From Comamonas testosteroni ATCC 11996 (lineage in GTDB: Bacteria; Pseudomonadota; Gammaproteobacteria; Burkholderiales; Burkholderiaceae_C), in assembly GCF_000241525.1 (NCBI RefSeq), contig NZ_AHIL01000032.1, positions 1 through 64,000 on the forward strand: a stretch of DNA of 64,000 bases. The letters are read 5' to 3'. Both the position numbers and the translations under genes were made by a program. Positions 35,116 to 63,644 of the stretch are shown in pieces. The notes under the pieces are model-generated. The model did not search any database, was not told where the DNA came from, and saw only the letters and a program-made list of their open reading frames with translations. The first letter of the stretch is position 1. Each line of letters opens with the position of its first letter.

Positions 35116-35130
35116 TATTTGATATGTTTA

Positions 35131-35162
35131 TGGCGCCCTACCACGGGGCGCTATTTTTTTTT
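35131..35162 (+). terminator. Terminator after the DUF3987 gene
   Basis: GGCGCCC-TACCAC-GGGGCGC followed by a nine-base T run; overlaps the end of the convergent AT-rich gene. Confidence 0.8.
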
Positions 35163-36449: not shown

Positions 36450-36491
36450 CTCCCCGGAATTTAGTAGCAGGTGAGCTTGGAGTCCAATCCC

Positions 36492-37575: not shown

Positions 37576-37783
37576 AACCCGTCAAATTAACACCGGACTC
37601 CAAAGCCTTGTGCTACTAAAAACGGGGGGCGTAGGATGGCCCACTACGTCGACGGTGTCCACCCCCATGAGAGAGATGAGTGGACCCATTATCAGTGAGC
37701 TTCCCGCCGATGTGCCCGTTCAAGCCGATGCAGATTGTGCTATCAACCGTGGCTTTGAGCAGCAAATCCGAAATCAGCGATGG

Positions 37784-38696: not shown

Positions 38697-41600
38697 ATGA
38701 CGAGGCGCATCGCAAATCTGACCCAAGGCACTTTTGTTCGAATCGAGTCTTCACCCTATTCCGATTGGGGAGTTGGAAAACTCACCGACATCCAGGGGGG
38801 GCTTGCGCGAATCCAGTTTTTTGATGCGCCTGGCGCTGCTTTGCCTGAGGCGGTGGAGGTAGCACTATCGCATGTAAGGGGCGCCATGCTGCCCGTACAA
38901 ACACGTGTGTATCGCCGCATGCAGGGAGGACGCTGGCAAGTCGGCCGGGTGCAGGAGGGCGAAGGCCCAATTTTGTTTGTCCAGTTTCCCAATGGCGAGA
39001 CCGTCAACGTTGAGGCCGAACAATTGGAGGTGCGCTGGAGTCGCCCACTTACCGATCCACTGCCACTGCTAGTATCTGAGGCCACAGAAACCCCATTTTT
39101 GGCGGATGCGCGGTCACGTTTCGTTCGCGCAGTGGCCCGCCAGCACTTCGCCGCTGCCGGTATCGATGCGGTGCTGTGCTCAGCAATCGATTTGGTGGAT
39201 TACCAATTCGATGTTGTGCGGCGGGTTCTGACAGACCCGATCCAGCGCTACCTGCTGGCGGATGAAGTGGGCTTGGGAAAGACCATTGAGGCGGCGATCA
39301 TCGTGCGCCAATACTTCATCGATGATCCATCCGCTGAGGCTGTGTTGATCGTTCCTACTGCTCTGGTGTATCAGTGGCGACGGGAGTTATCCGCACGTTT
39401 CGGTCTGGGCAATGAGTTGGACGACCACTTACATGTCATCGCGCATGATGACCTAGATCGTCTGTCTCAAGTCATCGGCAGTGCCGGCATGCTGGTGGTC
39501 GATGAGGCTCATCATCTGTCGCGGCAATCCACGGCCGGGCAACATCAGCTTTATGCGTTGCTCGAATCGCATGCCCGACGCGTGCCGCGACTGCTGCTGC
39601 TATCGGCCACGCCGGTGTTGGGAAACGCCGAGGAGTTCCTGCGGGTCCTGCACCTGCTCGATCCTGTGGTTTTTCCGTTGGAAGATCTCGAGGGGTTCAA
39701 GCGACGGATCGCCTCGCGCCAGGTAGTCGCCGAAGTTGTCTCCACCCTTGTGCCGCAAAACGTCTGGGGACTGGGACCAGATCTTGAACGCTTGTTGGAG
39801 AACTACCCCGACGATCCCCTACTGGTCACCAAAGTCGCAGCCCTTCAGCAAGTCCTGAACACCTTCCCGGACGAGGAAAGCGAGTCGTTCCTAGCCGCAT
39901 TGGACGACCTCAAGACGCACTTGGTCGAGAACTACCGGCTACACCGCCGATTGCTGCGTAACCGGCGCGCGGCGGTGTCTTGGGCGACGCCGCGGCGGGC
40001 CGACATGCGACCGGTCGCCTTCACTGGTCAAGCGACGGCAACTTGGCGCGACCGCCTCGAAACCTTGCGCCTCGCCGCGACGGCCGCGGGCAGTTTGACG
40101 CCCCCGATCGAGCAGGCTCTGCTGCAATCGGCCGTCAACCCCCATGCCAGCGCGCCGCTAAGGCCAGCGTTGGCGCAAGCCGGTCTCGATCACCCGGACT
40201 TGCTGTCGCAGGCCGAGGCGGTGGATCACGCGGCGCAGCGCCTGCGCGACGATCCAGCGCGGATCATCGCGTTATGCCGGCAAGTACGCGCGCTCCTGGA
40301 AACTCCGGGCACGCAGGTTGTTGTCTTTTGCGACCGCCCCGAGGACGCGGATCGGGTGGCGCAAGCCTTGGCCGGGCAGGTCGGTGATCGCGTCGTGCGT
40401 CACGAACCGGTCGAAGTTGACGAAGATGGCGAGGTCACGGCCCCGCAATGGGAGCAGTTCCTCGCCGCCCCCGAACGCATACGCGTGCTGGTGTGTGATG
40501 TGCGCGCCGAGGAGGGAGTCAACCTGCACGGCGGACGCAAAGTCGCGGTTCATTACGACTTGCCCGCCTCACCCAACCGCATCGAGCAGCGCCTGGGACG
40601 CCTGGACCGTTATGGCACCGGGGACCCGATCGTGAGCTACGTCTTGCTGGATGAGGCCAATGCGGACGAGGCCGCCTGGGCCTCGGTCCTCGACCATGGG
40701 TGGGGAGTCTTTGGCCAGTCCGTGGCCAGTTTGCAGTACCTGATCGAAGCCACCGCCGGACCTTTGGCGCGGGAATGGGTCGAACTGGGCACCGTGGCCC
40801 TTGAAACGCAGGCCCAGCAACTAGGCGGCGAGGACGGCTGGGTCCAGCGCGAGGTGCGCCAACTCAATCACCAGGACGGTCTGGATGCCATGGCCAACCG
40901 GGAAATTCCCGGCATGGAGACCTTGGAAGACGAAGACAGCGATTGGGTGGAGTGGCGCGCCGCCTTCAAGGCCTTGGCGATCGAAGCACTGCAATTTCAT
41001 TGGCACAGCGAAGGCGAACCGGGCGCACCCTCCGCAGATACCCCCTTCCGCGTCGGGTACACCTATCGCGACAGCGGCCGCACCACCCTGTTGCCGTTGA
41101 CGGGGTTCCTCAAGCATTTCCTGGCGACCGTCGATCAGCACGCCGCCGGCGGCAGCGCGCGTCTGCCATTGACACAGCGCTATGCCTTCAAGCGTCAGAC
41201 CACGACGAGTCGACGCGGTCTGGCCCAGGGTATTCGCCTGCTGCGTATCGGAGATCCACTGGTCACGTCGCTGGAGCAGTTTTGCGCGAATGACGACCGT
41301 GGTCGGGCGTTCGCGGTATGGCGGGTTGATCGGCAGTACGAGGTGAGTGACCCCAGCGGGGCAGATCTGTACTTCCGCTTCGACATCTTGGTGCGTCCCG
41401 CCTTGCCGAGCGAAGCTCCGGAGGGAGGATCCGGCGCGGACGACCCCTCGCAACGCCTGCATACCCAGGCGCTCGTACGCAAGGCCAGCACCTTCTTGCC
41501 TCCGCTGGCCTTGCGCGTGTGGGTGCAGGGCAATGGCGAGATCGAAGTCGACCCTTCGGACTTGCTGACCAGCGAATACGCCGACAGTTGGAAGGGCACA

Positions 41601-41978
41601 CGCCGCGACTTCAATTTGAACGTCCGCCGCTGGCGCAGTCTCCCGGCGGACATCAAGTCAACATGGATGCGCGACTGGGCTGGCTTGTGCGAGCGCCAAA
41701 GGCAGACAGCGATGGCAACGGTTCGGGCCCTGCCGCAGTACCAGAGCCGCCTTCAGCAAGCGTTGCAGGCTTGCGTTCAGGAGCGCCGCTTGCGCCGCTC
41801 GCAAGGCGATGCGCGGGCCAGTCGCCTGGCCGGTGCCGCCCAGGAACAAGAACTCGAGGAACTGCGCCAAGCCGATGCCATGTACGCCGCGCTGGAGGCA
41901 GCAATTGCCCACCCGCACCTTGAACTCGACGTCGTTGGCGCTGTCTTCCTGGCCTCAGATTCGCCGTTTGACGAATGA
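38697..41978 (+). CDS. dpdE: DpdE, SNF2-like helicase of the Dpd system
   Basis: About 1,093 residues. After an N-terminal region of beta-rich sequence comes an SF2/SNF2 helicase core: Walker A DEVGLGKTIEAA (about residues 188-199), DEAH (VVDEAHHLS, about 267), LLLLSATPVLGN, and motif VI IEQRLGRLDRYG (about 627). The C-terminal third has no recognised domain and ends in coiled coil. The ATG at 38697 follows TGAGGTCAAC and begins a recognisable N-terminus; the frame extends to 38604. It overlaps dpdF by four bases. In the family this gene belongs to the restriction half of Dpd. Confidence 0.88.
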   Translation: MTRRIANLTQGTFVRIESSPYSDWGVGKLTDIQGGLARIQFFDAPGAALPEAVEVALSHVRGAMLPVQTRVYRRMQGGRWQVGRVQEGEGPILFVQFPNGETVNVEAEQLEVRWSRPLTDPLPLLVSEATETPFLADARSRFVRAVARQHFAAAGIDAVLCSAIDLVDYQFDVVRRVLTDPIQRYLLADEVGLGKTIEAAIIVRQYFIDDPSAEAVLIVPTALVYQWRRELSARFGLGNELDDHLHVIAHDDLDRLSQVIGSAGMLVVDEAHHLSRQSTAGQHQLYALLESHARRVPRLLLLSATPVLGNAEEFLRVLHLLDPVVFPLEDLEGFKRRIASRQVVAEVVSTLVPQNVWGLGPDLERLLENYPDDPLLVTKVAALQQVLNTFPDEESESFLAALDDLKTHLVENYRLHRRLLRNRRAAVSWATPRRADMRPVAFTGQATATWRDRLETLRLAATAAGSLTPPIEQALLQSAVNPHASAPLRPALAQAGLDHPDLLSQAEAVDHAAQRLRDDPARIIALCRQVRALLETPGTQVVVFCDRPEDADRVAQALAGQVGDRVVRHEPVEVDEDGEVTAPQWEQFLAAPERIRVLVCDVRAEEGVNLHGGRKVAVHYDLPASPNRIEQRLGRLDRYGTGDPIVSYVLLDEANADEAAWASVLDHGWGVFGQSVASLQYLIEATAGPLAREWVELGTVALETQAQQLGGEDGWVQREVRQLNHQDGLDAMANREIPGMETLEDEDSDWVEWRAAFKALAIEALQFHWHSEGEPGAPSADTPFRVGYTYRDSGRTTLLPLTGFLKHFLATVDQHAAGGSARLPLTQRYAFKRQTTTSRRGLAQGIRLLRIGDPLVTSLEQFCANDDRGRAFAVWRVDRQYEVSDPSGADLYFRFDILVRPALPSEAPEGGSGADDPSQRLHTQALVRKASTFLPPLALRVWVQGNGEIEVDPSDLLTSEYADSWKGTRRDFNLNVRRWRSLPADIKSTWMRDWAGLCERQRQTAMATVRALPQYQSRLQQALQACVQERRLRRSQGDARASRLAGAAQEQELEELRQADAMYAALEAAIAHPHLELDVVGAVFLASDSPFDE

Positions 41979-44557
41979 GCGGCGCTCTGTTTTCTGAGAC
42001 TGACCTGCGGGCGGCCCTGGCGCACTGGCCGGACAGTGCGCCCGACCTCGAAGGCAAGGGCACCACGAGCGGCCTGATGGACCGCCTTCGGCAATGCCTG
42101 CGTGATCTGCTGCGGCAAAGCGGCACCGCCACATTTTTGGACCTGATCGCACTCCTGCGGCATTGGCTATTGGCCCAGGCTCGCGGTGGCGAGGCGCCCT
42201 GGCTGGAGGTGCCACTCACACCGCCTTGGCCCTCAAGTCAGGTCTGGAACGACCACGGTTTTGAAGTGGCCGATCTGGGCACCTGCGCCCAAATCCGCCC
42301 CCACTACCCACGGCTACCGTGGCTTGGGGAGCAGCACGACCTGTTTGACGATGCGTTCAACGGGATCGAGGCCCGTCTGCCTACGCGTCTGCCATCGGAC
42401 CCGCCACTGCGCTCACTGCTAGGACTGCCCACCTACACGGGGCCGGGCCAACGCGAAGCCGTCCGGGCGCTGATGCATTTGCCCGCCGACACCACCCTGA
42501 TTGCCAACTTGCCCACCGGCAGCGGCAAGTCGCTGCTGGCCCAATTGCCGCCGCTGGCGGCCAGCCAAGGCACCCTGACGCTGGTCATTGTCCCGACGGT
42601 GGCCTTGGCCATCGACCAAGGTCGCCGGATGGCGGAGTTGTTCAAAAAGCGCGACCCTCAGTGGACGGATCGCCCCCTGTCTTTCCACAGCGGCCTGAGC
42701 ATCGAAGAGCGTTCGTCCGTCTTTCAGGCCTTGCGCCGGGGTGAACAACGCGTTCTGTTCACCTCACCGGAGGCCGCCACCGGTTCCCTAAGAAGCCTGT
42801 TGGTCGACTGCGCGCGCGAGGGGCGCATTTCGCATGTCGTGATTGACGAGGCGCACCTGGTGGTGACTTGGGGCAGTGGGTTTCGTCCGGCTTTTCAACT
42901 GCTGCCAGCGCTGATCGCCAGTCTGCGGCAGGCACGTGGCCCCGACGCGCCCCAGCCGATTCGTGTAGTCCTGGCCTCCGCCACCCTCACACCCCACACT
43001 GTCACCAGCCTGCAAAGCCAGTTTTCGGGATCGATGGGGCACTGCGTCGTCTCTGGGATTTTTCTGCGCCCCGAACCCCGCTATGCGATGAAGCCGTTGG
43101 CGTCGCCGAACACGCGGGTACGGCGTGTGTTGGAAGTTGTCCTCAAGGCACCTCGCCCCTTCATCTTGTATGTGACCCGTCCCGATGAAGCCGAGGAATG
43201 GCTGCGACATTTGTCCGAGGCTGGACTAGGCCGGGTCGCCGCCTTCACGGGCGAGACACCCGCCCAGCAGCGCCAGTTGCTGATGGCGTTGTGGGACACC
43301 AATGCACTCGATGGGATGGTCGCGACCTCCGCTTTTGGCCTGGGCGTCGACAAGAACGACGTGCGCGCCGTCATCCACGCCACCTTGCCGGAGTCACTCG
43401 ATCGCTTTTACCAGGAGGTGGGGCGCAGCGGCCGCGACGGCCTGGCTTCGGCCAGTTTACTGCTGTACACGGAACAGGATGTGGAGCAGGCCCGAGACAT
43501 GGCAGGCCCGACCCTCATTGGCAACGACCTGGGCTATGAGCGGTGGGTGGCCATGCTCGACGATCCGGCTCGTCCGATCACCGCCGATGGCGAGATTTGG
43601 GTCAACCTCAATCGCCTGCGCGCCGGCTTATCGAGCCAGGGCAAGAGCAACCGGATCTGGAACTTACGAACGCTCAATCTCATGGCCACCGCGGGCCTCA
43701 TTGAGATCACGGGCTTGAGTGCCCGCGCCCCCGACGGTGCCACCTCAAACGACGATCAGGAGTACACCGACGCGCAGGTGACGTTTGCGAGTGTGCGCAT
43801 TCGCCATCCCAACCACCGTGATGTCCTGGTGTTCGACGAACGCATGAATGCTGCGCGCGACGGCCTGCTTCAGGCTGCCGGCGACGCATTCACCTTGATG
43901 TACCGCGCCGCGCAGGCGCAGATCGAGATCTCGCAGGCCTTGATCCAACTCTATGGCCTCGCGTTACCCAATCATTGGGGCCCGGTCACGGCGTTCTGTG
44001 GCGGGTGCAGCCAGCACTGGGGGGACCGGCGCATGCCAGTGCGGCAACTGAAACCGTTCGTGGCCAGGATCGACCGGTTCTCCCCAAGGCTCGAGGAAAC
44101 GCCCGAACTGCAAAGCCTGCCGCGCGAGCAAGCCAATCTCGCATTTATCGCCACGGCAGATCTTGCTCGTACCTGTGCGGATAGTCGCTCGAGCTTGGCG
44201 ATGCTGTTGCAAAAGGTGCGCCCCCACTCACTGTGGATCCCGCACTCGGCCAGCGACAGCCTGATCGATTCGATCATTACCCAGCTCATAGCGGTTCGCA
44301 GCGACACCTTCGTGGATCGCTTCGATCCACGCGATCCCACCGCGCTGCGCGGTGGTTCAGCTGAAGTCCGGTTCCTGTTGTGGCTCGAGCCGATGATTAC
44401 GCCTGAAGCCGCTGCGGCCCTGCGGACGTCTCCCAGTGCGCTGACAGTCGTCTTCATCCACACCCAATTGCCGGACCCCAGCCGTCCGGATCGGCCGTGG
44501 TCCTCGGTGGTTGCCCATGCCGACGAGGACACGGTCTTGCGAAAGTTGATTGCATGA
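41975..44557 (+). CDS. dpdF: DpdF, RecQ-like DEAD/DEAH helicase
   Basis: An 860-residue helicase with a RecQ-like core: Walker A NLPTGSGKSLLAQL (about residue 178), DEAH in VVIDEAHLVVTWGSGFRPAF (about 288) with the RecQ aromatic loop, and motif VI FYQEVGRSGRDGLASA (about 478). RecQ's zinc and HRDC domains are not evident; the C-terminal 380 residues are unique. Coupled to dpdE and dpdG through ATGA overlaps. Presumed part of the Dpd DNA-targeting machinery. Confidence 0.88.
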   Translation: MSGALFSETDLRAALAHWPDSAPDLEGKGTTSGLMDRLRQCLRDLLRQSGTATFLDLIALLRHWLLAQARGGEAPWLEVPLTPPWPSSQVWNDHGFEVADLGTCAQIRPHYPRLPWLGEQHDLFDDAFNGIEARLPTRLPSDPPLRSLLGLPTYTGPGQREAVRALMHLPADTTLIANLPTGSGKSLLAQLPPLAASQGTLTLVIVPTVALAIDQGRRMAELFKKRDPQWTDRPLSFHSGLSIEERSSVFQALRRGEQRVLFTSPEAATGSLRSLLVDCAREGRISHVVIDEAHLVVTWGSGFRPAFQLLPALIASLRQARGPDAPQPIRVVLASATLTPHTVTSLQSQFSGSMGHCVVSGIFLRPEPRYAMKPLASPNTRVRRVLEVVLKAPRPFILYVTRPDEAEEWLRHLSEAGLGRVAAFTGETPAQQRQLLMALWDTNALDGMVATSAFGLGVDKNDVRAVIHATLPESLDRFYQEVGRSGRDGLASASLLLYTEQDVEQARDMAGPTLIGNDLGYERWVAMLDDPARPITADGEIWVNLNRLRAGLSSQGKSNRIWNLRTLNLMATAGLIEITGLSARAPDGATSNDDQEYTDAQVTFASVRIRHPNHRDVLVFDERMNAARDGLLQAAGDAFTLMYRAAQAQIEISQALIQLYGLALPNHWGPVTAFCGGCSQHWGDRRMPVRQLKPFVARIDRFSPRLEETPELQSLPREQANLAFIATADLARTCADSRSSLAMLLQKVRPHSLWIPHSASDSLIDSIITQLIAVRSDTFVDRFDPRDPTALRGGSAEVRFLLWLEPMITPEAAAALRTSPSALTVVFIHTQLPDPSRPDRPWSSVVAHADEDTVLRKLIA

Positions 44558-45447
44558 GCTTGTTAAACATCACCAACGACGGGCTGCCCAATATCCTGGT
44601 CGTGCTGCATGCCACGGTATTGCGCGCCACCAAGCCCATGGCCGAGGCAGATCTGTTGGAGGCCGTATCGCCGGCCGCGATCGTGGAAGACGATGGACAG
44701 ATGACCCGCAACACCTTGAATCGGTGGACGGAACTGGGACTGTTTGTTCGTGAAAACGGGCTGATTTCGGTCAAGGAAAGGCTACCGGGGCGCCGCGCCA
44801 CGGCGCTTGAAATACTGCCGTTCACCCGGCGAATGGCTTGTCGCCAGGCCCTGGCGGAAGAAAACAACCCCGACCTGTGGGCCAGCCAGAGCGCACGGGC
44901 TGCCGACCTCACCCGCTCGCTGGCATGGATGCTGGCGCAGGACGTCTACCGGGCCTCCTTCGCCCAGTTTGAGACGCAGGAGTCGCAGCAGATTTTTGAT
45001 CCAGAGCGTCTGCTTATGCGTAACTCGACCCGTCGCTCAGGCCTACAGTACTGGGCACCCTTCCTGGGGTTCAGCCGGCATCCGTTTGCAGCGGTGGATC
45101 CGACCGTTGCTGTGCGAGATGCCCTCGCGGAGGTGCTGGGGCCAGGCGAGGGCCTGCCCGCGCCCCAGTTCGTGGAGCGCTTGGGGACGGTCTTGCCGGT
45201 GTTGGACGGCGGGCGCTGGCAGCTCGAGGTGCTGAAGTATGTGGCCCCCGCAGCGCTGCCGCCACGCCAACCCGGACAACTCTCCAGCGCCCTGTCGCGC
45301 GCGCTGCTGACCCTTTGGGACAGTGGCGAGTTGCTGCTGCAGCAAAAGGCCGACCTCGGCAGTTCGGTGACCCTCACCGGCGCGGGGGGCGCCCGCAGCG
45401 ACCTGACCTTTCAATGGATCGCCCGTCCGCAGGAGACCACGGCATGA
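44554..45447 (+). CDS. dpdG: DpdG, Dpd restriction-associated protein
   Basis: A 297-residue protein that overlaps both neighbours by four bases. The N-terminal 90 residues (DLLEAVSPAAIVEDDGQMTR onward) look like a winged helix. No enzymatic motif is visible. It is assigned as DpdG by its place between dpdF and dpdH and by size. Role unknown. Confidence 0.8.
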   Translation: MSLLNITNDGLPNILVVLHATVLRATKPMAEADLLEAVSPAAIVEDDGQMTRNTLNRWTELGLFVRENGLISVKERLPGRRATALEILPFTRRMACRQALAEENNPDLWASQSARAADLTRSLAWMLAQDVYRASFAQFETQESQQIFDPERLLMRNSTRRSGLQYWAPFLGFSRHPFAAVDPTVAVRDALAEVLGPGEGLPAPQFVERLGTVLPVLDGGRWQLEVLKYVAPAALPPRQPGQLSSALSRALLTLWDSGELLLQQKADLGSSVTLTGAGGARSDLTFQWIARPQETTA

Positions 45448-48400
45448 GCTCCCTGGAACAGTACTGGCCATCGGTCGAACATGCGACCGAGTGCCTGCGC
45501 ACTGAAGCCGAGACGGTTGATGAGGCATTGCTGTTGGCCGTTCACGAGCCGACCACCTTGTTGCGTCGGGCAGCGCAGACCGGTGTTGAAATCGCGGCCG
45601 ACGAAGTGGCCTTGCTCAATGAGTTGATGCGCCCGGTGACTGATGGCAGTGCGGTCGTGATTGCCATCACGGGCGCCTCCGGTGTGGGCAAGTCCCACAT
45701 GGTCCGCTGGCTGCGCGCCCAACTGCAGCGGCACCCCCGCCGCCAGGAATTGGTCGTGGTGTCGATTCCCAAGACCGCCAGTCTGCGCCGCGTGGTCGAA
45801 TTGATCCTGGAGCCGCTCGCCAGCGAAGAGTACGAAGCGCTCAAGCGCGAATTGGCGAGATCATCCGAGCAATTGACGCCCTCGACTGCTGCCGAGTTAC
45901 TCGCCGCCGCGTTGGGCGAGGGACTCAAGGAGTACCGGGACCGAACCGCCGAGTTGGTGAAGGCCGCACCGACCGAGAACAGTGCTCTAGCCCCACATGT
46001 GGCTGTGGCCGAGCATGCGCGCAGTTTGATCCAAGCGCCGGAAGTGCGGGAGATGTGGCTGAGCAAGGTGCTCCATCGCATCGTGGGGGCCAGCCTGGGT
46101 GGCGCCTCCAACCCCGCGGACCGGCAATTTCGCGCGGACGACCTGGCCCCGCCGGAGCAAGCCGCGGGGCAAGAGTTGCCCCAACGGGCACAAATGGCGC
46201 TGGCTTTTTTAGGCAACGCCAATGGCCGGTTCCGCAGCACCGCGGCGGACATCCTGCAAGAGGTTCTCGACGGCGCGCTGCGCACCGTGTTCCGCGTCAC
46301 TGAGGCCCTTCAGCAAAAGTCCATCCAGGACGTGGTCGACGACATTCGTCGTCAGCTGCTCAAGGATGGCAAGGAGTTGGTCCTCCTGATCGAGGACTTG
46401 GCGGCCTTGTCGGGGATTCAGCAGCCGCTGCTGGACATCATGATTGCGGAGAGCGATGAGCACGGCCGCCGCGTCCGCGCGCCCATTCGGACCGCGGTGG
46501 CCGTGACCGACGGTTTCCTGGCCGGCCGCCAAACGGTGCTCACGCGGGCCAAGGAGCAGTGGGTGGTCCCCAGCGAAGGCTTGGCCGAGGACACCATCGT
46601 CAGCAAACTGGTTGACCTGACGGGGCGCTACCTGAATGCCGCACGCTGGGGTGTCCAATACCTGAAGCAGGAGTTTGCTCGGTCCAGCCAGACTAGCCAG
46701 GACCTCTACGCCTGGGTGCCCAATTTCAATGAGACATTAGATGCCGCTGCGGCGGAACGGCTGGACGCTTTTGGTCGCAGCCGCCAGGGCTATCCGCTAT
46801 TTCCCTTCAATACGCACGCCATTCGAGGCCTGGCGGAAGCCGCCATGAAGCAAGGGGGAGTCTGGACCTACAACCCCCGGGCCTACATCAATGAAGTCTT
46901 GCGCAAGACTTTGGCTGAACGTCCGGCGTTCATCGCAAGGCATTTCCCGCCCGCGGGCTTCAAGTCGCCCCGCCTGGTGGCCGAAGTGCGTACCGAGTTG
47001 CAGCGCAAAGGCTACACCCAGGAGCACGCCCAACAGTTGGAAGCGGCGTTGCACTTTTGGGCGGGCAGTCCGAGTCGTCTGGCGGCGGCCCCGGTACCGC
47101 GCGCGGTGTTTGAGGCGTTCTCTCTGCCGTGGCCGTTCGGTACCGCCAGTGCGCCGATCTCACCGGTCGCGCCACCGGTACCGAGGGATCCTCCACCCCC
47201 AGGTCCCCCCGGGACCCCGCCACAGCCCTTGCCCCCAGTCCCGCCGTCCGTACCCGTCGATGCGATACCAGCCGCCCCCGACATCTCCGCGTACGCGGGC
47301 GCACTGGAAGCGTGGACGCCAACCAATCGCTTGCCCAACGCCCACGCGCGAGAGACCCGCAACCTGATCGCCCAGGCTTTGGACGAACGCATGGATCTGG
47401 GCAATTTCTGCCTGAAAGGACAGAAGGTTGATGCCAGCTGGTTCTGGCTTCCGCCCACGGCCACGGCTGGCAACCCGCCCAGTGGTTTGGTTGTCCAGGT
47501 GGTACGACCGGACCAAGCCATCCCTCCTGGCGTTGTCGCCGGTCTCAAGGCCCTAGCGCGCTGGGAGAAAAACGGCAAAAGCTGGTTCTATGCAAATGCG
47601 GAAACCGACTACGCCGCGGCCAATGCCCTGCTCGATGGGTTGGAGCACCAGGTCTTGCAGGCGCTGGCCGCCGAGGCAGAACGTGACGCAGGTATGGTGG
47701 CCCGGGCGCTCCATATCCAAAGCGTCTTGCTGGGACTGAGCAGCCGAGGACAGCCGGACAGCCCCAGCCTGAAGGCGTTGACCGGCGCCAGCCCCGACGA
47801 ATCGACCTACATCGATCCGCGCGTGGGGGCCTCCGTCGGCCAAACGCTGGCGGTGCGCAGCAAAGCCACTGCGGCGCGCGCCGAGTTGCAAGATCGCCTC
47901 AAGCAATTGATCGGCTGCTTCCAGGGCGCCACCGGAGGCAAGGTGCTGGCCATCGATGCCGACCGCCTCAAGCGAGCGTGGAAGACGGAGTTGCCGGCCC
48001 GATGGAGCCTGGGATTGAAAGGCCGTGGTCTGAGCGAAGCAGCCTCCGACGTCCTCGAACGGGTCTCCAGCGGCAGCCTGCCCACGCTGGTCAACAACCT
48101 GCAAAGCACGGTTCAAGTGCTGCTGCCTCAAACCAGCGCCGCATTCGACGCGGAGCACGCCCGCGTGGCCTGGCGCGACGAGATGAGGTTGCTGGTGCAA
48201 GAGGCCTTGCAACTGTCCGTCTGGCCTGCGGGGCAGCGCGAGTCGGAGATCCGCGCCGTTATCGACCGCTTGGCACAGGAGAATATGGAATCGGTCATCC
48301 AGCGCCTGCGTAAGATGAGTATTCCTCCCTCAGATGAGCCGGCGCCGGTGCGATTGGCCGAACTCTGTGCCGTTCCGTTGCCCCGGCTGAGTCAACTGGC

Positions 48401-54566: not shown

Positions 54567-56811
54567 CACATCGGCCAACACAGCAGCGGCAACGGCGCAG
54601 GCCGTGCTCGGTAGGTTCTTTGCGGCCGTTAATACCTATGCCAATCCCTTGACCGGTACGGTGCCCGTGAACAAACAGGCGGTGCCGCAGGCCCTGGTCT
54701 CGGCGATTTCCAGGTATGGCAAGGGCTTCAAGGACCGGCCGCTTCTGTTGCCTTTTTTGGAGGCAGGAGCCGAACGGACCTGCTGGCTTGCCTGTGCGCA
54801 TGACGAATTGAGTGCGCGGGGCCTGCACGACGAGATGATGGCCTTTGTAGGTCCGAGCTTCGGGGATTTCGAAAAAGACGGCGCGGCCCTGTCTGCAACA
54901 CAAGGCAGTGCCAGATCCGTCCTGACCCAGGCGGGCTTGCACGTGAGCGCTTTCTTTGCGATCACGCCCAAGCTTGAGTCTCGGGTCATCGCTAGTTGGC
55001 AGCGCTATTGGCAACTACTCGAGCAGAGGCCTGCGCGCCCCCGCCAGGAATTGCGTACCTTCCACCAGTTGCGTGCCGCGTTTGATCGCGCCCTGGTGGC
55101 CCGCAACGAGAAGGATGCCTTGGCCGCGATGGCGGCTCTGCGCGAGCAGCACCGCCTCAGCGCTGAGAACCGTGCCTTCCTCGAAATCCGATTGCACGCG
55201 GCCCTGGGACGCTGGGACCGGATCCTGGCCCACCCCCAATGGGACGACCTGCTCAAGGTTCGCCTGCCGCCGGAGACTTACGGCGACATTTGGGATGCAC
55301 TGTACGAGACCTACCTTGCCCCCGTGGAGGTACGGGGAGTTGCCGACGATCTGGTAGAGGCCTTCGCCCAGCGCGTGCGCATCATGGCCACGAACCTGCT
55401 CAAGGGACGCGGTCGCAGTCGCCGACCCGCCGCGCTCAAAGGCTTCCTGCTGCACGAGTTGTCGTTGGACGAGCCGTCGGCCCAACTGTGCGCATCCCTG
55501 CTTCAGGAGTTGGGGGCGCACGCGTTCGGTCCGGCTTCCGAGGCAATTGCCACGATAGCTCGGGCATTGCAGCCCAAGTCGGGGCTGGAGCAGGCGCTGC
55601 ACGAGATGGAGTTGGAGCGCTACGAACAAGCATTGGCGCTGCTGCAACCGTTGCCAGACTCGATCGAGGTCCTGCAGGCACAATTGCGTTGTGCCAAGGA
55701 GATCGGCCATCCCGGCCAGGCCAGCGCAGCCATCGACCGACTCCAGGCGGCCAACGCGGAGATGGCGATGAAAGCGCGGCAGGCTCGGCCACGGCTTCTG
55801 GCGGATGTCGAAAAGCTCGCTGCGCAAAACATCACCACGGCCACGCTGCCGGGTCCCCAATCGCCCCCCGGTCCCGGCAAGGCCGACGACTTGCTGGTGT
55901 ACTGGCGGGAACTGGTTCACTCACCTGAGGCCGCGGCCATGCTGGAGCAGCCCAGTTTTGTTCAGTCGTTGTTATCGACGATCGAAGATGTCGCCCTCGA
56001 CACGTCGCCCTTGTTCGAATCCTTGTTGCCGATCTGGTTCGACTGGCTGGTGATTCGCACCACGCCCGCCAGCGCGCTGATGAAGGTCTACCTCGGCTTC
56101 ATCGAAGCGCTGCATGTCCGCGACCGCGCGGGCGAAAGCGAACGGGAGATGGTCCGACTGGCCACGCGCCATGCGCTGATCGCAGGCCTCACGCCCTCTG
56201 AATACACCGGCCTGGTTGACCGCCTGGGCGATGTGTTCTCCGAATCACCTTCACCACGAGAAATCGGCTGGGGCCTGGACCTGGCAGACTTGCTGGCCGT
56301 TCACCCGTGCAGGGATGACGAGGCGCGCCTTCGGTGGACCGCCAAAGTGCTTCAGGCAGCCAACCAAATCTGGGCTCGTCTTTCGACCGCCGAGCGGTGC
56401 CTGCTGGAATTGCTGGCACAAGAAGCGGAGTTCCCTCTGCCGCCAAGGCCAGCGGAGGATACCGACGGCGAGGCACAGGTTCGCGCGGACATTCAGGCGC
56501 GCATCTTTCTCTACAGCCTGGATACCCACGCCATCCGCCGAGCAGCGCTAGTCCTTGAAGCAGCGTTTCCACAAGCCAAGATTGACACCAACTCCGATGA
56601 AACCTGTACGCCTCGCCTGAGGACTGGAACCCGTCACGCCGACTGGGTGGTGTTCGTCTCGGGGGTCGCCACCCACCAGGCCTTTTTCTGCATCAAGGCC
56701 GCCGTGCGTGCAGATGCGGCCTTGCTTCAAGTCGACGGCAGTGGCACCACACGTATTGTGGAACGCGTGATACGGCAAAGCCAGTTGGTCTCGGCCACGC
56801 CCGCGGCCTGA
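54550..56811 (+). CDS. dpdD: DpdD, Dpd system protein of unknown fold
   Basis: About 753 residues from the ATG at 54550, which lies inside dpdK (17-base overlap). Mostly helical; two stretches (FLEIRLHAALGRWDRILAHP and YEQALALLQPLPDSIEVLQA) look like TPR-type repeats. No catalytic motif. Identified as DpdD from order, size and context; last gene of the plus-strand operon. It ends before a 460-base gap. Confidence 0.75.
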   Translation: MAPVSSTSANTAAATAQAVLGRFFAAVNTYANPLTGTVPVNKQAVPQALVSAISRYGKGFKDRPLLLPFLEAGAERTCWLACAHDELSARGLHDEMMAFVGPSFGDFEKDGAALSATQGSARSVLTQAGLHVSAFFAITPKLESRVIASWQRYWQLLEQRPARPRQELRTFHQLRAAFDRALVARNEKDALAAMAALREQHRLSAENRAFLEIRLHAALGRWDRILAHPQWDDLLKVRLPPETYGDIWDALYETYLAPVEVRGVADDLVEAFAQRVRIMATNLLKGRGRSRRPAALKGFLLHELSLDEPSAQLCASLLQELGAHAFGPASEAIATIARALQPKSGLEQALHEMELERYEQALALLQPLPDSIEVLQAQLRCAKEIGHPGQASAAIDRLQAANAEMAMKARQARPRLLADVEKLAAQNITTATLPGPQSPPGPGKADDLLVYWRELVHSPEAAAMLEQPSFVQSLLSTIEDVALDTSPLFESLLPIWFDWLVIRTTPASALMKVYLGFIEALHVRDRAGESEREMVRLATRHALIAGLTPSEYTGLVDRLGDVFSESPSPREIGWGLDLADLLAVHPCRDDEARLRWTAKVLQAANQIWARLSTAERCLLELLAQEAEFPLPPRPAEDTDGEAQVRADIQARIFLYSLDTHAIRRAALVLEAAFPQAKIDTNSDETCTPRLRTGTRHADWVVFVSGVATHQAFFCIKAAVRADAALLQVDGSGTTRIVERVIRQSQLVSATPAA

Positions 56812-57275: not shown

Positions 57276-57740
57276 CTATGACACCTGCCGATGCTGTCCG
57301 CCGTCGATCTCCGCCCAGCAGTTGGGCGTTTCGTACAGCGTCACTTTGGCCAGCGAAAGATGGCGGCCGAAGCGGTCTTGGAACACGTCCTTGAGGATGT
57401 CAAATGCAGCCTGTGCTAGGTTCTCCACCGTTGGCACGCGGTCGATGACGACGGTCTTGTGGTCCGGCATGCTGTCCAGAAAGGCGCGCACGGCCGTGTC
57501 TTTTTCATAGACGATGAAGGCATGGTCCCACAGGTCCACTAGGTGCGCTTTGGCCAGCGTCTTGATATCGCCGAAGTCCATGATCATGCCGTTGTCGGAT
57601 TCGCCGTCCTTCTTTACCAAGTCGCCCGTGAGGGTGATGAGCAGTGTGTAGCGGTGGCCGTGCAGGTTGCGGCACTGGCTGCTGTGGTCGGGAATTCGAT
57701 GCCCGGCATCGAATTCCATTTTTCGGGTGATGGTCAACAT
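57276..57740 (-). CDS. queD: QueD, 6-carboxytetrahydropterin synthase
   Basis: A 154-residue protein with the zinc ligands His14, His27 and His29 (FDAGHRIP and NLHGHRY), a catalytic Cys23, the DHAF His and the C-terminal Glu (LYETPNCWAEI). It turns dihydroneopterin triphosphate into 6-carboxytetrahydropterin, step two of preQ0 synthesis. It ends the minus-strand operon. In this island it serves DNA modification, not only tRNA queuosine. Confidence 0.93.
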   Translation of the reverse strand: MLTITRKMEFDAGHRIPDHSSQCRNLHGHRYTLLITLTGDLVKKDGESDNGMIMDFGDIKTLAKAHLVDLWDHAFIVYEKDTAVRAFLDSMPDHKTVVIDRVPTVENLAQAAFDILKDVFQDRFGRHLSLAKVTLYETPNCWAEIDGGQHRQVS

Positions 57741-57758
57741 GGTTGATACCTGTATTTA

Positions 57759-58394
57759 TTAGGGAATTTGCAGCAGTTTGTGGGTCTGTAGTGACAGATT
57801 CCAGCGGGGATGGGCCTTGCAGTATTCGATGGCCAACTTCAGGTTGGTAGCCTGCAATGGCCCGTCCATGGCCTGCAAGAAATGGTGCTCGAAGTCCAGC
57901 GCGGCGTATGCGTTCAGGCACTGCCCAGGCTGAGGAATGACGACTTTTATCTCATTGCCTTGACGCACCATTAACTCTGAACCCATCTTCGGGCTGACGC
58001 AGACCCAGTCCACGCCAGCGGGAACCGGCAGCGTGCCATTGGTTTCGATCGCCACTGTGAAACCGGCGGCATGCAGGGCATCGATCAATGAGACATCAAG
58101 TTGCAGTAAAGGCTCGCCGCCGGTGCACACCACGTATTTCTGCTGTGGATAATCCGCTGGCCACAGCGCATTGATGCGCGCGGCCAAGGTTACGGCGTCG
58201 GCAAACTTGCCACCCCCATCGCCATCGGTGCCGACAAAATCGGTATCACAGAACTGACACACGGCGCTGGCACGGCCTGTTTCCGTCCCATTCCAGAGGT
58301 TGCAACCGGAGAATCTGCAAAACACCGCCGGACGACCGGCATGGTGGCCTTCGCCTTGCAGGGTGTAAAAAATTTCCTTGACGCTATAGGTCAT
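57759..58394 (-). CDS. queE: QueE, 7-carboxy-7-deazaguanine synthase (radical SAM)
   Basis: A 211-residue radical SAM protein with the QueE-specific cluster spacing C31-x14-C46-x2-C49 ([10 protein letters not shown]...CQFC), and the GGEPLLQ motif near residue 92. It rearranges carboxytetrahydropterin to 7-carboxy-7-deazaguanine. It starts four bases before the queC stop. Confidence 0.95.
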
Positions 58395-59095
58395 CCTTGC
58401 TGGCCCCTGCGGTAGGTCTCATAACCAGTCTGGCGCAATTCGCATGCTGGGCATTTGCCGCAACCGTAGCCCCAAGCGTGACGCTGACTGCGATCACCCA
58501 GGTAGCAGGTATGCGACTCCTCCAATATCAGCGAGACCAAATTGTTGCCCCCTAGTTGTTCGGCCAGACGCCAGGTGGCTGCCTTGTCGAGCCACATCAA
58601 CGGCGTCTCGACCACCATGCGTTGATCCAGTCCAAGGCTGAGGGTGACCTGCAGGGATTTAAGCGTGTCATCACGGCAGTCAGGGTAACCTGAGTAGTCG
58701 GTCTCGCACATCCCTCCCACCAGCACCGTTAAGCCACGCCGGTAGGCGAGGGTGGATGCAAAGGTTAAAAATAGTAGGTTGCGGCCTGCTACGAACGTAT
58801 TGGGTAACCCGCTTTTTTCAAACTCGATGGACTTTGCTTGAGTGAGGGAGGTGTCGCTGATTTGGCCCAGGAGGCTCATATCAAGCATGTGATCCTCACC
58901 CAGTTTTTTATCCCAACTGGGGTAGCTTTTGCGTAGTGCTCGAAGAAATGTGCTACGGCATTCTAGTTCGACAGCATGGCGCTGGCCATAGTTGAAGCCA
59001 ATCGTTTCTACACGTTGATATCGATCGAGAGACCAAGCCAGGCAAGTTGCCGAATCTTGGCCACCAGAAAATAGAACAAGGGCAGAGGTATGCAT
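58391..59095 (-). CDS. queC: QueC, 7-cyano-7-deazaguanine (preQ0) synthase
   Basis: A 234-residue PP-loop protein: [15 protein letters not shown] (residues 9-23) and a C-terminal zinc site in [20 protein letters not shown] followed by AC. It amidates 7-carboxy-7-deazaguanine and dehydrates it to preQ0 with ATP and ammonia. The ATG at 59095 starts [12 protein letters not shown]; the frame is open to 59224, which I treat as non-coding. Four bases overlap queE. Confidence 0.94.
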
Positions 59096-59204
59096 AGGCT
59101 CAGCGGTTAGTGAATCGCATGACTTTTTGATTTCCTTATGGTGAGAGAAAGCACTAGTCGTCGAATTCGGCTGCGGATTTTCTTGGGTTGCGCTGCAGCG
59201 GTAA

Positions 59205-60281
59205 TTAGGCGACTCGACGAACATGTCGTAGTTCGCGCTTCAATCGCCGAACGAGGTGATTGGCCAAAATATCGATATCTGTTGGGGTGTTCTGAATTCC
59301 ATTCCATGGGCGTATATCGTCATCACTCAGATACCACTGCCCGCTGGTCCACGCTGTGTGGCCATTATCTCGAAGTAGTTTTAGACCTGGTATAAAGTCT
59401 TCACTGGATGTTGCATTAGCGTGGGTATATAAATGTTCCATCACAAATCCTAAGGCGACCAATCCTGCACCGTGACGGATACGTGAAGTTCTTGGGCTCA
59501 TTCCAACCCATTCTGAGCTAAAAACCGTTTTTACTGCTTCAAAAAATTCATTAATTAGTTTTACGGAGCGCTCTTCATAGTCTTCATAGCGAATGAAATC
59601 ACGAATGGCTCCTTGTGCTGTGGAGTTCATGACGAGTCTTTGCATTGCGGCATCACTCAGTACACCTCCTGGATTGGTGTGCTGCCGAATGTCGTGAAAG
59701 AGTGCGCCTCCGCGTAGGTGGTTCAATCGCTCGACAACTCGGGCCGAGAATTTTCGGTTCGTAAATCGTTCAGGTAAACCTTCGACCTGTGGAAGCAATT
59801 CATAAATAAGAGTTTTTGGTAATGGTCGCGTATTGTTGATCAAAACAAATTGCTGGCGTAATTCGTTGTAGTCTTTGCAAACGAGCGCAGAGACAAAAAC
59901 CTGAAATTCAGGTTTATCCAGGCCAGTCAGAGCGGATAGTCGCTGCTGTCCGTCAACAACAAAACCGGGTTTATCAGCATCAACTTTTATTGATACCTCA
60001 ATTAAGCCATCACCCAATTCTCGAATTTTTACCCCTCCGATGAAGGCTATGATGACTGCGTTCGGTAGCAAAGCATCTTCGCGACCAAGGTAGTCGCGAA
60101 TCTCTTTAATGTGAGATGCCACCTGATGCCGTTGGAAACCTTTTAAGGTCCCACTTTCATCACGGCCTACGCGCTCGATCTCGGAGAATTTCAGAACATC
60201 GTGGGGATGTGCCGCAAAGCAAAAAATATCGTGATCAGGAGCTTGCTGAGCTCGTAGTGCTTTGTATTTAAACGTAGTCAT
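59205..60281 (-). CDS. DpdB-like DGQHR-domain protein (second copy)
   Basis: A 358-residue protein with the DGQHR signature [14 protein letters not shown] and the conserved blocks [20 protein letters not shown] and [12 protein letters not shown]. It is a paralogue of the gene at 61573, sharing order and blocks such as FQR..V.SHI..I.DYL. The DGQHR proteins of the Dpd system (DpdB) act with DpdA to put preQ0 into DNA. This copy lies just downstream of dpdA with a four-base overlap, and a 109-base gap separates it from queC. Confidence 0.85.
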
Positions 60282-61576
60282 TTCGCGTTCGACAAAGTTC
60301 GTTGAAGGTGCTGGTGGTAGACACCAAGATTGTGGAATCCGCGGCGCTTATTGCGATTGCTTGCTCTAAAGATGATCACTTCAACGCCTACATTGCTACA
60401 GACATCACAACTGCATCGCTTCCAGGGCTGTGCATGAAGTGTTCTAGCAATCTGCTCCCGACTTTTAGCTAACTCTCTATCTCTTTTCTCGGCGTCCAGT
60501 TTGTCGTCACCAAGAGTAAGAAAGCGTTGATAGTCCATGACCACGTCCAGAGCATCCTCCGCACTTGCTTGATTCTTGTCATAGGCACGCAGAGTGTTCA
60601 GTGCCAGTCGCTCTCGCCTTTGGAGATCTTCTGCACTAAAGATGCCTCGCTTAATGCCTTGCAAAAGCCTTGAGTTTTCAATCGCCTGAGGAATTCGAAT
60701 AGCAGCGTAGTAATCGAGGCCTCCGTTGGGGGATTCGATGTAGTAGTTGCGCTTGGAATCCTTGAACGCTCTAATTAGCGGAGATGTAGAGTCGAAACTC
60801 GTGATGTTATGTCGAACGAACTCATGAATGTGATCGGCTTTTGCGAAACCCAGCAAGTGTATGTTGGTGCTGGGATTAATGGTTTTTCTTAATGTCTGAA
60901 GTACTTGATGGATAACGTCTACTTTTAGAGGGACGAGTCCTCCAATCGCTAGGTAGCGATAGCCCATTTTTTCCAGAGTTTTTGCGGATTGAGCCATGCT
61001 GTCGGGAGACCAGCCTTGCACAGCTCCCATCGGTTCGAACTCGTTCCCTTCTAGCTGGACAAGTTTGAGAAACTCCTCGGCATTTTTCAGCGTGATGTTG
61101 TATCGTTGAATGGTCTTCTCATCCACCGATGTTGAAGGTGGATTGCTGGTATCGCAATCGAAGATGATATGGTCGGGGGAAACGCCATGAGTAAACCCGG
61201 CATCCAGGTAAAACTCGACTACTTCCGAGGGCGAGTAAGCAGGCTGCTCATGCTCAACATAGGCAAAGGCACCGCAATCACCCATGAGCATAGATTCCAT
61301 GTACTCTGGGCGGTCGTAGCGGAGAAATTTGCGCGCTCCGACACGTAACAGTCGTTGCTCTTCAGATGTTGAGTACCGAACCTTTGAAGAGGCTACACCG
61401 TTTGCTTGGCGAATAGCGCTCATCGATAGAAGCAAGCCATCATAGGGAGCCGGAGTCATGATTTCATGGGCATACCGATCATCCCAGTAGCGCTCGCGAC
61501 TCGGTGCACTGCGATCATTTAAAAAATCATATTCAGGATCGACGTAGTCCTGTGTGTCGGAGTAAAGGAATTTCAT
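60278..61576 (-). CDS. dpdA: DpdA, DNA-guanine transglycosylase (TGT-like)
   Basis: A 432-residue TGT-fold enzyme. I can align it to bacterial TGT: Asp100 in MLMGDCGAFAY (the DSGGFQ general-acid site), AIGGL at 211-215, Asp262 in TSFDSTSPLIRA (the FDCVMPTR nucleophile), and the zinc site C388-x-C390-x2-C393 with His415 in FHNLGVY. These are the features expected of an enzyme exchanging guanine for preQ0, here in DNA. The linkage of DpdA to DNA is established for the Salmonella Montevideo system. Overlaps both flanking DGQHR genes by four bases. Confidence 0.92.
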   Translation of the reverse strand: MKFLYSDTQDYVDPEYDFLNDRSAPSRERYWDDRYAHEIMTPAPYDGLLLSMSAIRQANGVASSKVRYSTSEEQRLLRVGARKFLRYDRPEYMESMLMGDCGAFAYVEHEQPAYSPSEVVEFYLDAGFTHGVSPDHIIFDCDTSNPPSTSVDEKTIQRYNITLKNAEEFLKLVQLEGNEFEPMGAVQGWSPDSMAQSAKTLEKMGYRYLAIGGLVPLKVDVIHQVLQTLRKTINPSTNIHLLGFAKADHIHEFVRHNITSFDSTSPLIRAFKDSKRNYYIESPNGGLDYYAAIRIPQAIENSRLLQGIKRGIFSAEDLQRRERLALNTLRAYDKNQASAEDALDVVMDYQRFLTLGDDKLDAEKRDRELAKSREQIARTLHAQPWKRCSCDVCSNVGVEVIIFRASNRNKRRGFHNLGVYHQHLQRTLSNAK

Positions 61577-62703
61577 GTTTTAGTGTGGCCTGCATATGCG
61601 CGAACCAGCACGTCCTGTAACTTTTTAATATCTTTCGGGGTACTCTGAATTTCGTTCCATGCGGAGCCTAGAGATTCCCAGTGCCCTTTTGTCCAGCGGC
61701 AAATTGGTGCAACTTTTCTGAGTTCGGCTTGAACAACCTTGACATCTTCAGTTGGGCCTGACATGCGTGCATAAATGCGGTCCATCAATACGCCCATTGC
61801 TTCAATACCTGCCGAATGCATTAGTCGACTGTTTCGGGGATCTTTACCCCAGGCATCCGGGAAAACGCAGCGTACCGCTGTCCAGTAGGTCTGGAGAATC
61901 CGGTACATGCTCTGCGTGTCAGCGGGTTCTTGAGGGCTTCCTTTGTATGGAGCCAACGCTCCCAAAGGGTTGTTGATGCTGTTTTTAATCATGGTGATAA
62001 CAGCAGAATCTGTTACCACAGCACCACTAGTCGAACTCTTTTCGGAGACTCGTTTTATCAGTCGATAGAAGGGTGATTCTTTGTCGCGATTGAGAAGATT
62101 ACAAATCTCTGCAGGGAGTTTTCGCAGGCTAAGGTCTCTAGGTAGCAAGACACTGCGAGTTTCTGGCAATAACTCGTTGATCAATCTTGAGGATAGTGGC
62201 TTGGCTTTATTTACAAGAATGAACTGCTCGCGCTGGATCTCGAGGCTGTCAGAAACGAATCCAATCACTGGTACTGGAATCGTCTTATTACCAATCTGAC
62301 TAAGAGCCAATGACCGTTGCTGGCCATCGACGATCCACGCGACGCGTTCCCCTTCCTTGAATAGCGGAATGGTTAGGGTGCCGGATTGTGCTAGGCCAAG
62401 ATCCCCTGTCGGTTTGGTTCCCCTAGATGCGGAGAACTTCACCACTGGCGAAAGTGCAAGGATGATTGCATTAGGGAACAGTACATCACCTTGCAATAAG
62501 TAATCAGCAATTCCCTTGACATGACTGCGAATTTCAGGGCGTTGAAATCCCTTGAGATTGTCAGTCTGGTCGCGCTCCACTCGAGAAATGTCCGCGACAC
62601 GCATGATGTCTGGTCCACTGATGAAGAACGCATAGACATCCAATTTGTCGCCCTGCTGGGTGTGCAGAGCACGAACAACGATTTCTGAGGTATTGTCTGT
62701 CAT
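61573..62703 (-). CDS. dpdB: DpdB, DGQHR-domain protein (first copy)
   Basis: A 376-residue protein with IVDGQQRSLALSQIG near residue 125, NAIILAL, QFILVNKAKPLSS and WNEIQSTPKDI. It lies between dpdC and dpdA in a coupled series (ATGA overlaps on both sides). DpdB has been shown to be needed with DpdA for preQ0 insertion in DNA and to have ATPase activity; both are transferred by family membership. Which of the two copies is the functional partner here is unknown. Confidence 0.86.
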   Translation of the reverse strand: MTDNTSEIVVRALHTQQGDKLDVYAFFISGPDIMRVADISRVERDQTDNLKGFQRPEIRSHVKGIADYLLQGDVLFPNAIILALSPVVKFSASRGTKPTGDLGLAQSGTLTIPLFKEGERVAWIVDGQQRSLALSQIGNKTIPVPVIGFVSDSLEIQREQFILVNKAKPLSSRLINELLPETRSVLLPRDLSLRKLPAEICNLLNRDKESPFYRLIKRVSEKSSTSGAVVTDSAVITMIKNSINNPLGALAPYKGSPQEPADTQSMYRILQTYWTAVRCVFPDAWGKDPRNSRLMHSAGIEAMGVLMDRIYARMSGPTEDVKVVQAELRKVAPICRWTKGHWESLGSAWNEIQSTPKDIKKLQDVLVRAYAGHTKT

Positions 62704-63644
62704 AGCCTGTTGGACTTCATTTCATCACGCATGCTTCGCCACAAGCCTTTGAAGCGCGATTGTTCGCATTTGACTAAGAGGTCGTCTCGTAGCACGCGCA
62801 GGAGGCGACTGCTGCTGCCTTCATTCGCTAGCCAATGTAGACGCAGGAGTGCTTGTATCTCATCGTCAGAGCGCTTTTGCCGTTCTGGCAGCGTTCTCAC
62901 GACTTGTTTGGACATGGCTGCATTAACGACTACACGTGCCTCATCGAGCCCTAGCGTGTGAGCTTGAAGGGTCTCCACGAAATGCCGCAGAGCCCGCTGT
63001 GGAAAGTCATTCCTCGTCCCGGCAAAAGACGTCGACTCTAAACGCTCGTCATAGGGAAGTACAAGGCGTGTGAAGTCGGCGGGCGCTTGGCGGAGCCAAG
63101 CCGGGGAAGAAAAAATGCGTAATCGTGTCCGGTCTCGTGGTGCAAGTGTCAATAACTCATCGTCGATCATTGCTAGGTAGGTAGAGGGCATTGCCAAATA
63201 GACGATTGCCTGTGGATGACTATCTAGTAGGGATGCAATTGGCAAGGGCTTACCAAGGCTACGGTTGAGTGCACTCCACCAATGCTTGGGGCTCAGCCCT
63301 AAACGTTTGAGAGCCGGTAGGACTGTGGCTCCGGATGCGCCTACAGTCAGGTCATATGCTGGAACAGTGTCGTCAGCGGAAACCAAGCCTAGACCGGCGG
63401 ATAGCACATAGAGTTGGCCATCTAATCCTGCAGCTGCAACTTCGGCTTCACGAAATGCTCGGCCGGCATACAACTGTCGTGCAATGTGGTGAGATGGCGC
63501 TGCACTAAGTGCGGTTCTCCATACCTGAGCGATCTCATCAACTGTTCTGTAATGGGATGAGTATTTCGTCAGGGTGACGTCTGCGCTATACAGTTTTCTA
63601 CCTGTACAATTGGTAATGATGATTGCTTGCTTTGCAGTTTTCAT
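62700..63644 (-). CDS. dpdC: DpdC candidate, converts preQ0-DNA to the amide
   Basis: A 314-residue protein starting MKTAKQAIIITNCTGRKLYS, with LYVLSAGLGLVSADDTVPAY and the following DLTV, a pattern that resembles DUF6884/YaaA-like proteins. It is first in the minus-strand operon and overlaps dpdB1 by four bases. By position it is DpdC, reported to be needed for forming the 7-amido-7-deazaguanine from preQ0. The family assignment is inference. The ATG at 63644 has an AAGG site; the frame extends to 63680. Confidence 0.7.
   Translation of the reverse strand: MKTAKQAIIITNCTGRKLYSADVTLTKYSSHYRTVDEIAQVWRTALSAAPSHHIARQLYAGRAFREAEVAAAGLDGQLYVLSAGLGLVSADDTVPAYDLTVGASGATVLPALKRLGLSPKHWWSALNRSLGKPLPIASLLDSHPQAIVYLAMPSTYLAMIDDELLTLAPRDRTRLRIFSSPAWLRQAPADFTRLVLPYDERLESTSFAGTRNDFPQRALRHFVETLQAHTLGLDEARVVVNAAMSKQVVRTLPERQKRSDDEIQALLRLHWLANEGSSSRLLRVLRDDLLVKCEQSRFKGLWRSMRDEMKSNRL

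Follow-up and report, generated by a model that had tools for sequence, protein, structure and literature searches.

The DNA of Salmonella Montevideo carries a 7-deazaguanine modification and restriction system, Dpd, whose pathway follows the outline given here. PreQ0 is made by FolE, QueD, QueE and QueC, DpdA inserts it in DNA with the aid of the ATPase DpdB, DpdC hydrolyses the preQ0 in DNA to 7-amido-7-deazaguanine (ADG), and DpdD to DpdK carry out restriction, according to two accounts (PMC12839542, PMC11888242). The latter, a 2025 preprint, reports 2,335 unique Dpd windows, 801 additional copies of dpdB, and Comamonas testosteroni among the carriers. The present analysis concerns a Dpd island in a 64,000-nucleotide stretch of C. 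testosteroni ATCC 11996 (contig NZ_AHIL01000032.1, positions 1 to 64,000; hereafter the window), in which two diverged dpdB genes flank dpdA. Dpd is not a new system, as the initial annotation stated, and its occurrence in Comamonas is not new either, the preprint having named this species. What appears to be new is the dpdB pair as ancient, fixed-position subunits; no account in these terms was found in the open-licence papers searched, the only mention seen there being the count of extra copies in PMC11888242, whose supplementary tables may hold the arrangement.

A Dpd island of two-DpdB form

Positions 38604-63680 of the window contain 15 long open reading frames (ORFs) in two convergent runs, which almost certainly form a Dpd island. 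The plus-strand run has the order dpdE-F-G-H-I-J-K-D, and the minus-strand run, in its own reading direction, dpdC-dpdB1-dpdA-dpdB2-queC-queE-queD, the two meeting at 56811/57276. Searches with PADLOC profiles for DpdA to DpdK, the check proposed in the initial annotation, gave significant matches for DpdA and for the restriction proteins, with all eight of dpdD to dpdK matched (DpdI weakly) and DpdB found twice and DpdC once beside DpdA. Matches to every dpd gene are far beyond chance, and the description of a complete island in two convergent operons with queC, queE and queD (Pfam QueC or TIGR00364, TIGR04508 and TIGR03367, above cut-offs) is borne out. All the families listed there are present, but the second dpdB had been overlooked, and the order of the minus-strand genes is corrected to that given above.

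The source of preQ0 would be the island queC, queE and queD together with a host folE on contig C52; outside the island the host genome also encodes its own queC and its own tRNA-guanine transglycosylase (tRNA-TGT). The reading preferred here, with a probability of roughly 0.75, is that the island represents a complete Dpd restriction-modification system of the two-DpdB form. That it is instead decayed or silent, with genes intact yet unexpressed or non-modifying, is highly improbable: the insertion sequence (IS) of the IS3 family on its left, the IS3-like fragment seen by eye on its right and the mosaic GC content (0.51 in the modification operon, 0.64 in the restriction operon) would agree with decay, but all 15 genes are open across nearly the whole of their profiles, except for the partial and weak DpdI match, and the conserved residues are intact.

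Distribution of the paired DpdBs

The two DpdBs of the window, B1 encoded upstream and B2 downstream of dpdA, are 32% identical to each other. Five alphaproteobacterial plasmids encode upstream DpdBs that share 47-57% identity with B1, while their downstream DpdBs share 28-33% with it. A scan of a genome collection with a DpdA alignment yielded 266 relatives; the 80 best were retained, and their flanks were typed with purpose-made B1 and B2 profiles. B1 lies upstream and B2 downstream of dpdA in 77 of the 80 loci, a fraction that is not a prevalence because the loci were ranked by likeness to the window DpdA. The others are L026, in which B1 is present in two ORFs, and L065 and L070, which have B2 only; B1 alone was found in none of the 80. 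The window has the same arrangement of one B1 upstream and one B2 downstream, and its DpdBs fall in separate tree groups. With starts taken as profile starts, B1 overlaps dpdA at 81 of the 86 loci compared, the overlap being 4 bases long at 78, and dpdA overlaps B2 at 85 of 89.

Other samples were typed as well. Among 17 plasmid records with a DpdA match of at least 80% coverage, nine have both DpdBs, one (Enterobacter) has a single DpdB, and seven have none beside DpdA that is visible to the profiles. Five of these seven are from cyanobacteria or Paenibacillus, and two of the seven have an annotated DndB or DGQHR protein nearby. Four overlapping genome draws (phylum 398, family 399, class 369, order 399) gave eight distinct DpdA genomes, of which seven, including the present one, have both DpdBs and one has a single copy; two of the eight (G692 and G548) are apparently the same contigs as loci L015 and L046. 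The rarity of dpdA in the phylum and family samples is real, with DpdA above cut-off in 3 of 398 genomes of the phylum and DpdA in 5 of 399 of the family, the present one included in each. An Enterobacter-type dpdA occurs in 159 of 5426 Escherichia coli genomes, and the one E. coli locus examined has a single dpdB after dpdA and adjoins tRNA-Leu and an integrase.

Further dpdB genes occur in other settings. Seven Pseudomonas loci (L032, L033, L034, L036, L040, L043 and L044) have a third dpdB, which lies upstream of dpdC and runs in the other direction; in five of them a queD with this same orientation is found no more than about 0.5 kb away. A Variovorax plasmid (L127:8001-9568) encodes an orphan B2-type DpdB directly after a type I-E CRISPR operon, followed by a DUF6884 (DpdC-like) gene; no dpdA was found in the 17-kb stretch, and the same DpdB match is present in four Variovorax plasmid records, of which this is the one examined. 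Orphan DpdBs are also encoded on plasmids of Euzebya (L125) and Nonomuraea (L126), with no dpdA within stretches of 13 kb. A record labelled as a bacteriophage (L140, MT835580) contains the run C-B1-A-B2-queE-queD-queC, and is possibly a bacterial or plasmid fragment rather than a phage, as its DpdBs are identical to those of a Sphingomonas locus (L081).

Divergence of B1 and B2

A tree was built from 78 of the 192 DpdB rows. One of its branches has all 33 upstream copies to one side, and another has all 33 downstream copies to one side, each with a support of 100/100. The B2 side additionally holds three downstream copies without an intact B1 (L026, L065 and L070), three extra Pseudomonas copies that form a group of their own, and the Variovorax orphan. 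Between the B1 and B2 groups lie the single enterobacterial DpdBs (three rows), with which the Euzebya and Nonomuraea orphans are grouped. The program warns of long branches meeting in this tree, leaving the exact joins unsure. Rooting on three DGQHR/DndB proteins was tried and rejected, the outgroup branches reaching 9-10 changes per site and the B2 support falling at 67/100. A simple or recent local tandem duplication of dpdB is nevertheless ruled out by the tree.

The motif DGQQR is present in all 192 DpdB rows, including 88 of 88 B1 rows (85 distinct) and 91 of 91 B2 rows (86 distinct), and 53 alignment columns are at least 95% conserved in both B1 and B2, which rules out a degenerate second DpdB. 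Each type keeps the conserved core of the family and both are therefore likely to be active. A further 15 columns are at least 90% fixed for residues that differ between B1 and B2, among them differences beside the core motifs: S or L after DGQQR, E or Q two residues past GFQR, and K or N following a conserved N. At these 15 columns the single enterobacterial DpdB is of B1 type in five, of B2 type in five and of neither in five. Taken together, these patterns indicate that B1 and B2 are very probably ancient and distinct.

This divergence bears on two other explanations of the pair. The first is a redundant duplication of dpdB without special meaning, the system working as in Salmonella. A single PADLOC DpdB model is the best match for both proteins, plasmid annotations use one name for both, and the enterobacterial islands examined have one DpdB, all of which would agree with redundancy; it is nevertheless improbable, because the copies fall into two long-branched groups, between which the DpdBs of enterobacteria and two orphans from actinobacteria are placed, and because in alpha-, beta- and gammaproteobacterial loci alike both have stayed open and conserved, where redundant copies would be expected to decay. 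The second has B1 and B2 acting independently as specificity factors, either of which could partner DpdA by itself and direct it to a different DNA site, so that the marked set is widened. Columns fixed differently in the two types, some beside core motifs that both retain, and the two loci with B2 only are points in its favour. A B1-A-B2 order kept so strictly, with B1 and B2 each present once (77/80), is more than an optional pool of factors would need, and B1 never occurs alone in the 80 loci, making this explanation rather unlikely.

Proposed roles of the DpdBs

Monomer models of B1 and B2 resemble ParB-type folds with modest scores, and the two proteins score 50.2 and 58.2 bits with the Pfam DndB model, above its cut-off of 29.1. 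A PDB sequence search with each DpdB returned nothing convincing, the best E values being 0.0041 (titin) and 0.28. The ParB, Noc and KorB DNA clamps, which depend on cytidine triphosphate (CTP), differ from the DpdBs in giving no PDB sequence match to them and in their nucleotide, as that reported for DpdB in PMC12839542 is adenosine triphosphate (ATP). DndB of the phosphorothioate system is alike in its Pfam family and differs in context, since the window DpdBs lie in a preQ0/transglycosylase operon. No Dnd-named family was among the matches listed when 16 ORFs were searched with PADLOC, a search that did not extend to dndCDE in the genome.

The shared DndB family raises the prospect that B1 or B2 has turned operon regulator while the other serves DpdA, DndB being an ATP-dependent repressor of the dnd operon according to PMC12704722. 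Both genes lie inside the overlapping operon around dpdA and both proteins have DGQQR, which argues weakly against such a change, as a regulator could do likewise; it is considered quite improbable.

The preferred reading of a complete two-DpdB system implies the following sequence. Host FolE with island QueD, QueE and QueC would make preQ0; DpdA would exchange guanine in DNA for preQ0, driven by one or both of the ParB-like DpdB ATPases; DpdC would convert the preQ0 in DNA to ADG by hydrolysis; and DpdD to DpdK would attack DNA without the mark. The DpdB step would be split between two co-inherited, diverged subunits encoded on either side of DpdA. The analysis itself establishes gene content, order, conservation, phylogeny and fold resemblance, whereas these biochemical steps, and any contact between B1 and B2, are inferred. 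B1 and B2 are probably non-redundant in function, as two partners of one DpdA, and they may perhaps act in one complex. More speculatively, and with a low likelihood, they could form an obligate heterodimeric ParB-fold nucleoside triphosphate clamp that closes at an asymmetric DNA site and holds DpdA during the base swap, with the single enterobacterial DpdB as its homodimeric counterpart. Because its two DpdBs have diverged and are nearly always paired, this natural form offers a handle on the part that DpdB plays, be it that of a clamp, of a reader of specificity or of a source of energy, and current annotation places one name on these two different subunits.

DpdA and its relatives

The initial annotation aligned DpdA with the TGT active site, and this agrees with the invariance, in eight of eight aligned DpdAs, of D100 and D262, which we take to be the TGT aspartates, and of C388, C390, C393 and H415, presumably the zinc ligands. 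The protein matches the solved DNA-guanine transglycosylase PDB 7ui4 over its whole length (E 2.4e-178), and tRNA-TGT matches in the PDB are far weaker (E 1.9e-7 or worse). PDB 7ui4, its closest relative of known structure, is the S. Montevideo DpdA, according to PMC12137116. The nearest relative among the best 80 of 266 is the DpdA of Roseateles puraquae, at 87%.

In a quick tree of 43 DpdAs, which carries a long-branch warning, those of two-DpdB loci, of the B2-only rows and of L009 are set apart with a support of 98 from the single-DpdB, cyanobacterial and Paenibacillus DpdAs. The plasmids L009 (Acetobacter) and L158 (Methylorubrum) contain dpdC and dpdA, and no DpdB was found beside dpdA; they are possibly natural DpdB-free derivatives, the L009 DpdA falling among those of two-DpdB loci. 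Cyanobacterial and Paenibacillus DpdAs (L010, L011, L161, L162 and L163) are about 690-714 residues long and are extended considerably at the N terminus; L011, L161 and L162 also have a second, short TGT-like gene close by.

Exchange of modules and comparison with other islands

The identities of the modification genes vary together across 83-91 loci, with identity-matrix correlations of 0.84 for A-B2, 0.80 for B1-B2, 0.76 for A-C, 0.70 for A-B1 and 0.63 for A-queC, and those within D-K-J reach 0.86-0.89 (26-34 loci). Between C, B1, A and B2 on one side and D, K and J on the other, rho is -0.14 to 0.05 (Mantel p 0.36-0.61 for A, 299 permutations). At many loci the 10-kb flanks used here truncate the restriction operon, and identity is saturated for many of the D, K and J pairs because of their distance. 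The correlation with A is moderate for both E and F (0.52 and 0.51, p 0.003), so independence from the modification genes is shown for D-K-J only. This independent variation suggests that the restriction side would read the mark and not particular modification proteins. The window que genes are closest, among the fetched loci, to those of a Phycisphaeraceae metagenome-assembled genome (85, 89 and 93%, where the 93% match spans 0.6 of QueD). The DpdA of that genome and the window DpdA share only 67% identity; provided that the genome is correctly binned, the que genes are possibly a third exchangeable block.

The Dpd of S. Montevideo and E. coli, of order C-A-B with a single DpdB, comprises the same dpd families, and the window DpdA shares 39-40% identity with its counterparts from Enterobacter and E. 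coli. Stretches from these two, examined in place of the Salmonella island itself, have one DpdB and no queC, queD or queE, unlike the window. Islands of Rhizobiaceae, Sphingomonadaceae, Pseudomonas, Cupriavidus, Aquabacterium and Roseateles have the same B1-A-B2 core with dpdC before it and DpdAs 48-87% identical to that of the window, but differ by locus in que order and restriction genes, DpdA identity being no predictor of DpdD, DpdK or DpdJ identity (rho about 0).

Gene content of the island

Ten of the 15 island proteins were submitted to NCBIfam, where DpdA, D, E, F, H and J and QueC, QueD and QueE exceeded the curated cut-offs and DpdC gave only YaaA models below theirs. The start of dpdE may alternatively be 38697, and the dpdC ORF could extend to 63680. 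The PADLOC match of DpdI covers profile positions 105-232 of 244, and a Pfam search with this protein matched no family. The name YprA-family helicase for DpdJ is that used in PMC12458937. DpdK contains a single HxK...D...GSxN motif, read in the sequence, and the two DpdBs score 417 and 470 bits with PADLOC. Four-base overlaps join dpdC to B1, B1 to dpdA, dpdA to B2 and queC to queE, and B2 and queC overlap by 20 bases.

Table 1. Genes of the Dpd island, in window coordinates.
Gene	Position	Strand	Evidence
dpdE, SNF2-type helicase	38604..41978	+	PADLOC DpdE 1383 bits; NCBIfam DpdE 861.5, cut-off 500
dpdF, RecQ-like helicase	41975..44557	+	PADLOC 1649 bits; NCBIfam 818.5, cut-off 550, RecQ models behind
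dpdG (start from profile start)	44554..45447	+	PADLOC DpdG 128 bits, E 9.1e-38
dpdH (start from profile start)	45444..48536	+	PADLOC 2437 bits; NCBIfam 873.5, cut-off 450
dpdI, assigned mainly by position	48524..49273	+	weak PADLOC DpdI, 24 bits, E 4.7e-6
dpdJ, YprA-family helicase	49264..54039	+	PADLOC 1628 bits; NCBIfam 1496.5, cut-off 800
dpdK, PLD-family nuclease (start from profile start)	54036..54566	+	PADLOC 183 bits, E 1.1e-54; Pfam PLDc_2
dpdD (start from profile start)	54550..56811	+	PADLOC 1787 bits; NCBIfam 435.7, cut-off 300
queD	57276..57740	-	TIGR03367 92.4 bits, cut-off 89.25
queE	57759..58394	-	TIGR04508 344 bits, cut-off 240
queC	58391..59224	-	Pfam QueC E 8e-67; TIGR00364 194 bits, cut-off 150
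dpdB2, ParB-like, downstream of dpdA	59205..60281	-	PADLOC DpdB E 1.2e-125; B2 side of tree; ParB-like model
dpdA, DNA-guanine transglycosylase	60278..61576	-	PADLOC 569 bits; NF041059 558, cut-off 200; PDB 7ui4 E 2.4e-178
dpdB1, ParB-like, upstream of dpdA	61573..62703	-	PADLOC DpdB E 1.4e-141; B1 side of tree; ParB-like model
dpdC, DUF6884/YaaA-like	62700..63644	-	PADLOC 446 bits, E 1.6e-134; Pfam DUF6884

Genomic surroundings

The initial annotation placed the island at ssrA. This gene is indeed present at 24649-25025 with a tyrosine integrase (25190-26494) adjoining it, but dpdE lies 13.6 kb away and no attR was found, either when the ssrA end was compared with the initial 124 kb for matches of at least 18 bases or with its last 60 bases against the whole 258-kb contig, where the best partner had 12 bases, at chance level. 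A possible loose likeness to the ssrA end was seen by eye near L141:840-870 on host contig C32. Directly after ssrA lies a phage-like integrative element (25190-36146) with integrase, RDF-like, YqaJ, DUF932, AlpA and DUF3987 genes, followed before the Dpd island by the IS3-family element at about 36460-37620, which has an integrase-core ORF and ends placed by eye. In the ssrA flanks of four congeners a related integrase follows ssrA in two, and ssrA is on this basis regarded as an insertion site in the genus. Placement of the Dpd island at ssrA is thus plausible but only loosely supported, and a single inserted element holding both would be a candidate.

An Rfam search at gathering thresholds over 25-64 kb of the window gave nothing. 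The IS3-like fragment after dpdC, recognised by eye only, extends from 63830 to about L141:430, and no DNA similarity was found between it and the left IS3-family element. Past the window on the same host contig, L141:3957-13538 encodes an autotransporter-type protein of 3193 residues with 20 PATR repeat matches.

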